Shown here: positions 2,823 through 38,341 of the stretch, one piece after another
How positions within the stretch are numbered: position 1 is the stretch's first letter
Layout of the letters: the number at the start of each line of letters is the position of its first letter
Source of the DNA: a virus
Direction: 5' to 3' (one strand)
Length of the DNA stretch: 38,341 nucleotides
Virus record (IMG/VR): IMGVR_UViG_3300043431_000133
Location: 1 to 38,341 of that record
Notes under the pieces: generated by a model
What the model was told of the DNA's origin: nothing
What the model saw: only the letters and a program-made list of their open reading frames with translations
Database searches by the model: none
Made by a program: the position numbers and the translations under genes

Positions 2823-3269
2823 ATGCCGTTACTACATAAAGTGGATTGCGAGTGCAACGACTGCAACTGGAAAAGAAATGCTGAGCAAGAAGAATCAGAA
2901 CTGGAGCGCAGCCTTGATGAGAGGCTGGCGAGAATTAACGAGCTAGATAGTGAACTTAGGTCACTGAAATATGACGTGTCGTATATTCGACGATCTCTTG
3001 CTAGTTATCGAAACAAGCGAAAGGCGGAAGCAAAAAAAGCCGCAGACCCATTGCGAGGTGAAAAGGAAGCAGCTAAAGAGCAGTTGCTAGTAGCTCGTCG
3101 AGAAAGGTGGGAGAGGGTTCTTGCCATGCGAGAATCCGGGATGTCATTCCCGCTAATTGGTGAGGCGCTAGGCGTTAGTTCAACAATGGCGAAGTCGATT
3201 CATTCCAGGGCTGAGATGATCAAAGCATTTGAGGCTAGGTTCGGAGTTGCTTTTGTAAAGCAGCCATAG
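2823..3269 (+). CDS. Coiled-coil protein with C-terminal helix-turn-helix
   Basis: 148 aa from ATG 2823, chosen because of the strong GGAGGGGGGAA site; an upstream in-frame start (2784) adds 13 unlikely residues. The N-terminus has clustered Cys/His (HKVDCECNDCNW). Residues about 20-95 form a long charged coiled coil. The C-terminus (ERVLAMRESGMSFPLIGEALGVSST…) reads as a DNA-binding helix-turn-helix of the sigma-region-4/resolvase type. It is probably a small DNA-binding regulator; the exact family is not recognised. It lies between the two copies of the 78-bp repeat. Confidence 0.75.
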   Translation: MPLLHKVDCECNDCNWKRNAEQEESELERSLDERLARINELDSELRSLKYDVSYIRRSLASYRNKRKAEAKKAADPLRGEKEAAKEQLLVARRERWERVLAMRESGMSFPLIGEALGVSSTMAKSIHSRAEMIKAFEARFGVAFVKQP

Positions 3270-6701: not shown

Positions 6702-6748
6702 TTAACGGGGCGATCGGCGGGACTTTCCCTCCCTGCTGCAATTACCGA

Positions 6749-6777
6749 GCCGCTATAGAAATGTAGCGGTTTTTTTT
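6749..6777 (+). terminator. Intrinsic terminator of the first rightward operon
   Basis: CCGCTA-tagaaatg-TAGCGG followed by a run of eight T. Placed 48 bases after the stop of the last early gene, it is a textbook Rho-independent terminator for rightward transcription. Confidence 0.88.
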
Positions 6778-6780
6778 GGA

Positions 6781-6856
6781 TGGCGCGGCGCGCGGGAGTC
6801 CAACCCACAACCAGTATCCGTAAGCGCTTACGGTACTGGCAAGAGCTCATCGCCGC
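6781..6856 (-). ncRNA. tRNA-like element (76 nt, CCA end, no normal D/anticodon arms)
   Basis: Read on the minus strand from 6856 to 6781 it is exactly 76 nt and ends in CCA. Bases 1-6 (GCGGCG) pair with 67-72 (CGCCGC) as an acceptor stem; position 7 against 66 is A-G. Bases 49-53 (GTGGG) and 61-65 (CCCGC) form a 5-bp T stem with the 7-nt loop TTGGACT, in the correct tRNA positions. C56 is replaced by G. Instead of D and anticodon arms, bases 18-46 form one long hairpin with a single bulge. It is not a normal tRNA. It could be a tRNA-like RNA, a tRNA relic, or an attachment-site relic of a tRNA 3' end. Expression is unproven. Confidence 0.5.
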
Positions 6857-7135
6857 ATAAACTAGAGAATCGGAGCTACTTTAGTTACGGCCTTCAACAG
6901 ACCGGCAATTTCGCCCCTATCCCGTGTGGTGGCCGTTCTAATCGGCTTGTAGGACGAAGCTCAGAGCATAGCCACCGCCTAGCGAACGAATAATTAAGCC
7001 CTGTCGTTGGCGCTTCCATCAGCGCCGCACCACACGCCGCCTATTATCCACACCACCGCAATAAAAGCATCCGTATAAGCGCGTATTCCATCCCATGGCA
7101 AGTGGCGTAGAGTTGCGAAAACACCGGAGCACACC
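6857..7135. promoter_or_regulatory. Intergenic region with perfect DnaA box; candidate origin
   Basis: No gene in 279 bases. TTATCCACA, the consensus DnaA box, lies at 7044-7052. A hairpin GGCGC-ttccatca-GCGCC is at about 7009-7026. The complementary words GTGTGGTG (about 6923) and CACCACAC (about 7028) could pair across the region. Together with the tRNA-like palindrome on its left, this is the best origin candidate in the window, and promoter elements for the second rightward operon should lie here too. I see no iteron array. Confidence 0.45.
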
Positions 7136-36847: not shown

Positions 36848-37112
<265 letters not shown>

Positions 37113-37831: not shown

Positions 37832-38341
37832 ATGAAATTCACAACACTAAATAAAATCCGCGAATGTGCCCCTTGCTCGGATGGCTGGGCAAAGCTACTC
37901 GCACACCTTGGCAAAACATCGGCAGACGATGAGCCGCTGCCGTTTTCGGTCATCGTCGCATCAAATGGCCTAGATGATGCGCTGTGGGCCATGAGATCCG
38001 CACCAGAATATGATCGTGAGTGGAGATTGTACGCGGTTTGGTGCGCTCGCCAAGTGCAACACCTTATGACTGATCCACACAGCATTGCGGCGCTCGATGT
38101 CGCTATGCGGTTTGCAGATGGCGAGGCGACGCACGAGGAGCTGGCTGCTGCCTGGGATGCTGCCTGTGCTGCCAGGGATGCTGCCAGGGCTGCTGCCAGG
38201 GCTGCTGCCAGGGCTGCTGCCTGGGATGCTGCCTGTGCTGCCGGGGATACTGCTGCCTGGGATGCTGCCTGGGCTGCCAGGGATGCTGCCAGGGCTGCTG
38301 CCAGGGCTGCTGCCAGGGCTGCTGCCTGGGATGCTGCCAGG
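37832..38341 (+). CDS. Alanine-rich repeat phage protein, N-terminal part
   Basis: ATG 37832 starts MKFTTLNKIRECAPCSDGWA. A globular region follows (DDALWAMRSAPEYDREWRLY, then AVWCARQVQHLMTDP and IAALDVAMRFADGEATHEEL). From about residue 108 the chain is Ala-rich tetrapeptides (AAAR, WDAA, RDAA) to the window end. It continues at 1-234 by circular closure. The family is widespread in tailed phages (LWxxR…A…CAR/C…L…A…G…); function unknown. Confidence 0.82.
   Translation, partial: MKFTTLNKIRECAPCSDGWAKLLAHLGKTSADDEPLPFSVIVASNGLDDALWAMRSAPEYDREWRLYAVWCARQVQHLMTDPHSIAALDVAMRFADGEATHEELAAAWDAACAARDAARAAARAAARAAAWDAACAAGDTAAWDAAWAARDAARAAARAAARAAAWDAAR
38108..38341. repeat. Terminal overlap and 105-bp-period coding repeats
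   Basis: 38108-38233 equals 1-126. Within this block a 65-bp-plus segment starting at 38168 recurs at 38273, a spacing of 105 bases (35 codons), and 38273-38341 equals 61-129. The two ends therefore describe alleles, or assembly versions, that differ by one 105-bp unit. The basic unit is the 12-bp GCTGCTGCCAGG and its variants. Confidence 0.88.

Follow-up and report, generated by a model that had tools for sequence, protein, structure and literature searches.

A tRNA-like element of a P22-like phage, tentatively read as a decayed attachment-type tRNA 3' half

A 76-nt element on the minus strand of a P22-like phage contains a tRNA-like 3' half with its parts in the correct order and register. 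We tentatively read this element as the decayed 3' half of a tRNA-Arg(ACG)-like gene of the attachment-site type, and infer that it is homologous to tRNA-Arg(ACG), once served as an attachment site and now lacks function. Among the roles proposed in a preliminary description of this DNA, the evidence most favors that of a tRNA-derived attachment-site relic, because the sequence runs from an Arg(ACG)-like anticodon loop to CCA and because tRNA halves adjoin integrase genes in two relatives.

Genomic setting and architecture of the element

The window, that is, the whole stretch of 38,341 bases analyzed here, is an IMG/VR record of a P22-like podovirus with a P22-type portal and coat and Terminase_3. 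Lysis and late genes are encoded on the minus strand, and early genes, including ERF, an RNA ligase, a YbcO-type nuclease and a probable SSB, on the plus strand. The RNA ligase gene of the early region (PF09414; 3427-3999) is 56% identical to its counterpart in a relative, L106. No tRNA genes were found in the record by ARAGORN. A 12/24-base tandem repeat of one kind (GCTGCCTGGGATGCTGCC) makes up both record ends (36-183 and 38143-38341), which would fit a circular contig as well as one broken at the repeat with a segment missing. The hexamer CCGTAC is present in about 40 copies at 36869-37106, giving Pro-Tyr repeats in one frame. The tRNA-like element sits in a 434-nt gap (6702-7135) with two rightward gene groups on either side. 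The features of this gap are as follows.

6747-6779, plus strand: intrinsic terminator serving the upstream rightward genes, immediately next to the CCA end of the element
6781-6856, minus strand: whole tRNA-like element, 76 nt, from sequence and fold
6850-6856, minus strand: acceptor 5' strand GCGGCGA, six of seven positions paired, the seventh an A.G mismatch
6811-6839, minus strand: 12-bp hairpin with one bulged A, the stem part CAGTA/TACTG lying at the anticodon-stem position
6817-6823, minus strand: UUACGGA, which matches the consensus anticodon loop of tRNA-Arg(ACG) and occupies the 3' end of a 17-nt loop; the same motif is found in tRNA-Arg(ACG) genes
6792-6808, minus strand: T arm GTGGG-TTGGACT-CCCGC, with G for C at tRNA position 56 (window 6801)
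6781-6791, minus strand: acceptor 3' strand GCGCCGC, discriminator G73 and encoded CCA, from sequence and fold
6781-6838, minus strand: tRNA 3'-half unit, comprising the enlarged-loop anticodon arm, 3-nt variable loop, T arm, acceptor 3' strand and CCA

The minus strand from 6856 to 6781 reads GCGGCGA / TGAGCTCTTG / CCAGTACCGTAAGCGCTTACGGATACTGG / TT / GTGGG-TTGGACT-CCCGC / GCGCCGC / G / CCA. The acceptor stem has 6 of the 7 bp of a tRNA gene and is followed by an encoded CCA. Where a tRNA gene has a 7-nt anticodon loop on a 5-bp stem, the 5-bp stem CAGTA/TACTG closes a 17-nt loop, CCGTAAGCGC-TTACGGA, the last seven letters of which make a perfect anticodon loop (U33, anticodon ACG, G37, A38). 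The long hairpin arises because the first 10 loop letters are largely complementary to this anticodon loop. A short variable loop (GTT) leads into a 5-bp T arm with one G.U pair in its stem and the loop UUGGACU, which departs from the tRNA pattern UUCRANN at position 56 only. The length, coordinates, CCA, 6-bp acceptor stem, T arm and fold given in the preliminary description were all reproduced, as was the early terminator adjoining the element. The hairpin it had called near-perfect is real and has 12 bp, but contains the bulged A; an anticodon arm carrying a loop of 17 nt is a closer description of it than a replacement of both the D and anticodon arms.

The element folds with a minimum free energy of -35.9 kcal/mol (z -2.3), and equally good folds were obtained in 8 of 200 shuffles. 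The plus strand reaches -28.3 kcal/mol; the minus strand folds better partly because the T-stem G.U pair turns into A.C on the plus strand. A larger structured RNA across 6781-7135 was considered and rejected (z -0.4). No recognized tRNA cloverleaf was returned at the element by ARAGORN, by Rfam at gathering score or by RF00005, and ARAGORN relaxed to an 80% threshold, a check named beforehand, still did not return it. Identity as tRNA-Sec was dismissed, as its Rfam score of 13.6 bits lies far under the gathering score of 47. A tag reading frame with a recognized fold, as in tmRNA, was not found at the element.

Resemblance to tRNA-Arg(ACG)

The best local match of the element among 187 collected tRNAs was Arg(ACG), with a score of 39, while shuffled elements, scored against the first 79 of the 187, reached at most 32. 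The best match of the T arm in the full collection was likewise Arg(ACG). A motif composed from the element after the fact, TACGGAT followed after 1-6 nt by GGTTGTGGGTTSGACTCC, had three matches in IMG/VR, all three in tRNA-Arg(ACG) genes; this supports a probable tRNA-Arg(ACG) identity of the element, short of proof. The BLAST match to Arg(ACG) is by itself weak (E = 7). Like tRNA-Arg(ACG) genes, the element has TACGGAT at the anticodon loop and GGTTGTGGGTT.GACTCC in the variable loop and T arm, and it shares the GCGCCA end of the best-matching gene. Unlike them, it has no D arm, a 17-nt anticodon loop, C56G and another acceptor sequence, and it goes unrecognized by ARAGORN and RF00005.

Upstream of GGTTGTGGG, the Arg(ACG) alignment is not significant by shuffling (13%). 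The sequence 5' of the 3' half has no clear tRNA similarity, which is what a fragment that never included the 5' half would show. For the interior 41 nt, tRNA-likeness stayed within the level of shuffled sequence, and the 5' half of the element weakly resembles Arg(ACG) (shuffle p 0.007-0.037). Alignment of the whole 76 nt to tRNA-Arg(ACG) was set aside: it gave a global score of 49 against a shuffle mean of -1, yet tRNA-Gly scored 50 and the interior alone was not significant. Identity as tRNA-Gly(UCC), considered through the GCGGCG/CGCCGC common to phage tRNA-Gly genes that had been selected by acceptor pattern, was also rejected, since the U73 discriminator and the anticodon region differ. 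A degenerate tRNA-Gly-like sequence missed by ARAGORN lies in L139 (9536-9610); its acceptor and T arm are intact, and GACGCGGATTCCTCCGCGTC forms a long anticodon hairpin, possibly a second rebuilt anticodon arm.

No relatives carrying the element were found. The two genes flanking it have no relatives in IMG/VR, the hairpin core (17-mer) is absent from other IMG/VR contigs, and a DNA search of the intergenic region against 33 related records gave only chance-sized matches of 13-25 bases.

Chance expectation and tRNA halves beside integrases

The frequency of the layout by chance was estimated in 4000 simulated second-order Markov genomes. CCA, T arm and acceptor occurred together in 95 strand scans. 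A layout with at least 6 of 7 acceptor pairs and any inner part was present in ~2% of the genomes; requiring a 6-bp Watson-Crick run in the acceptor left 6 of the 4000, and requiring an inner hairpin of 10 bp or longer as well left no genome. Pure chance is an unlikely origin of the element. Because GCGGCG is abundant in the genome, chance alone would place a 6-nt pairing partner of the acceptor 3' strand in the permitted positions ~0.06 times; it is therefore mainly the co-occurrence of T arm, CCA and hairpin that is unexpected.

Of 6000 simulated genomes, 5 gave a match to a half-tRNA descriptor defined by an anticodon stem of 5 bp, a loop of 7-20 nt with YTNNNR plus one base at its end, a variable loop of 3-6 nt, a T arm and CCA. 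Applied to ~2.4 Mb of related phage DNA, from partly overlapping loci, the descriptor returned only the element and tRNA-derived sequence; the matches elsewhere were a tRNA-Asn half in L108, tRNA-Gln genes in L149 and L150 and a tRNA region in L193 and L194. Two relatives have integrase genes followed by tRNA 3' halves.

L095, 1091-2200: integrase gene, then a Met-like tRNA 3' half; probable attP site
L108, 17455-18498: integrase-like gene, then a tRNA-Asn 3' half; probable attP site

In L095, a clear tyrosine integrase (PF00589, 2.4e-30) has the tRNA 3' half directly after it, and the Met-like identity of this half is our reading of its sequence. The terminase of the L108 phage is 70% identical to that of the window. 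Its tRNA-Asn half is att-like and lies ~60 nt after the integrase-like gene, which has Pfam matches near the cut-off to the N-terminal and central integrase domains; the half holds another place in the gene order than the element. Together, the two halves beside integrases indicate that this phage group carries tRNA 3' halves as probable attachment sites. The core of such an attP site, a tRNA 3' half from the anticodon arm and loop to CCA, is present in the element in degenerate form, with the enlarged loop and G56.

Neither integrase (PF00589) nor resolvase (PF00239) domains were found in the record, which may be incomplete. Among the matches to the pattern of acceptor 3' end and T loop in genome_contigs there were no bacterial tRNAs, and the element thus has no known attB partner. 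A further record, L228 (CP031730.1, 'Stenotrophomonas rhizophila plasmid'), carries sigB/rsbW and a tRNA cluster that appear Bacillus-like, and is possibly mislabeled or contaminated.

Competing explanations and significance

Phage integration is a widespread source of partial tRNA genes (PMC9897764). In the case proposed here, a tyrosine integrase would have recombined inside a host tRNA gene, with the 3'-half copy carried by the phage restoring the split gene. The integrase would since have been lost in the phage lineage, or would lie outside the record. Insertion into the anticodon loop of ~10 nt that complement it (CCGTAAGCGC) would have produced the long hairpin, and drift of the fragment would have changed C56 to G. 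As in the 3'-half fragments of phage att sites, the anticodon arm of the element is followed by the variable loop, T arm, acceptor 3' strand and CCA, and the sequence preceding it on the 5' side is not of tRNA type. The element differs from those fragments in its record without an integrase, its enlarged anticodon loop, G56, its complementary acceptor 5' strand and the lack of a known host tRNA with the same end. Decay is favored by G56, by the rebuilt anticodon loop and by the absence of the element elsewhere. The attachment-site reading is weakened by the missing integrase, by the lack of a matching bacterial tRNA and by the presence of the acceptor 5' strand. On this reading, the 76-nt length and that strand (a chance of about 6%) have to be coincidental; otherwise, the strand is a remnant of a whole tRNA.

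Decay of a full-length, Arg-ACG-like phage tRNA gene, with the two acceptor strands and some of the D arm (AGCTC, TTG) surviving, is a rather unlikely alternative, in which the D-arm 3' strand would have been lost and the anticodon loop would have gained a palindromic insertion. It accounts for the complete 6-bp acceptor stem at the right distance, the total of 76 nt and the weak Arg(ACG) similarity of the 5' half. Single tRNA genes are also known in ~40 kb phages such as L236, the 40-kb Bordetella phage vB_BaM-IFTN6, in which we observed an unannotated tRNA-Arg(TCT) at 3001-3077. The interior 41 nt, however, do not exceed shuffled sequence in tRNA-likeness, the acceptor partner alone is a chance event of about 6%, and the acceptor sequence is unlike those of the tRNA-Arg genes seen. 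Because the layout descriptors were post hoc and many windows were read at the first stage, a chance composite of an unrelated hairpin adjoining a T-arm-like stem-loop and CCA keeps a low but real probability. The basic layout in ~2% of simulated genomes and the lack of any homologue agree with such a composite; against it stand the full combination in 0 of 4000 simulated genomes, the combined anticodon-loop and T-arm motif otherwise seen only in tRNA-Arg(ACG), and the restriction of the half-tRNA descriptor elsewhere in related loci to tRNA-derived sequence. It is very improbable that the perfect 16-bp palindrome CCGTAAGCGCTTACGG acts at the DNA level, as an operator or initiator site between the rightward operons, with the tRNA likeness incidental. 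The position in the 434-nt intergenic gap just past a terminator would suit such a site, and the palindrome resembles LacI-family operators, but it is unique in the window, is accompanied by no iterons or arm-type repeats, has outer arms offset by the bulge and leaves the T arm and CCA unexplained. An operator or iteron array was rejected, as the window holds a single site only.

It is improbable that the minus strand yields a functional noncoding RNA of tRNA-like form, in which an acceptor/T-arm minihelix and CCA would be combined with a long helix standing in for the anticodon arm, and which might bind EF-Tu, tRNA-processing enzymes or another host factor. Every stem is intact apart from one mismatch, the fold is stable and better on the minus strand, the bulged helix fits a single-stranded structure better than a symmetric operator, and the phage also encodes an RNA ligase. 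On the other side, there is no conservation, ARAGORN and Rfam are negative, and no minus-strand promoter rises above shuffles: the sole promoter-like match on that strand lies within the element, and the count in the region is close to shuffle expectation. A convincing terminator for a minus-strand transcript of the element was not found. G56 breaks the universal G19-C56 contact of tRNA structure. The preliminary description had taken this base to argue against a simple copy of a host tRNA end, which is right as far as it goes; it also counts against a working tRNA-like RNA and fits decay. In our own comparison, the element has no G3.U70 for AlaRS and no D-loop homology to tmRNA. A small RNA that copies the acceptor/T-arm half of tRNA, with a rigid helix for the anticodon arm, would be a free-standing analogue of the tmRNA tRNA-like domain and could engage host tRNA enzymes, EF-Tu or the ribosome, a possibility we consider quite improbable. 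The tmRNA domain, like the element, has an acceptor, a T arm and a long helix for the anticodon arm without a D stem. The element differs in having no mRNA-like domain, no G3.U70, a discriminator G instead of A and no homology, and the likeness is one of shape only. The proposed tRNA-mimic role gained no positive evidence, with no relative, no minus-strand promoter above shuffles and negative ARAGORN and Rfam searches, and nor did a packaging or origin structure. A decoy for anticodon nucleases is disfavored because the ACG loop is buried by pairing inside the hairpin.

Most likely, the element belongs to a known kind, the partial tRNA genes that arise from integration; its palindromic anticodon loop is unusual. 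A processed RNA ending in CCA, if one existed, would add to its importance. If the element is a decayed attachment-type half, it would be a minor fossil trace of lysogeny in a P22-like phage in which no integrase is detectable, and an example of an anticodon arm rebuilt by palindromic insertion, of value for annotation although no surprise.
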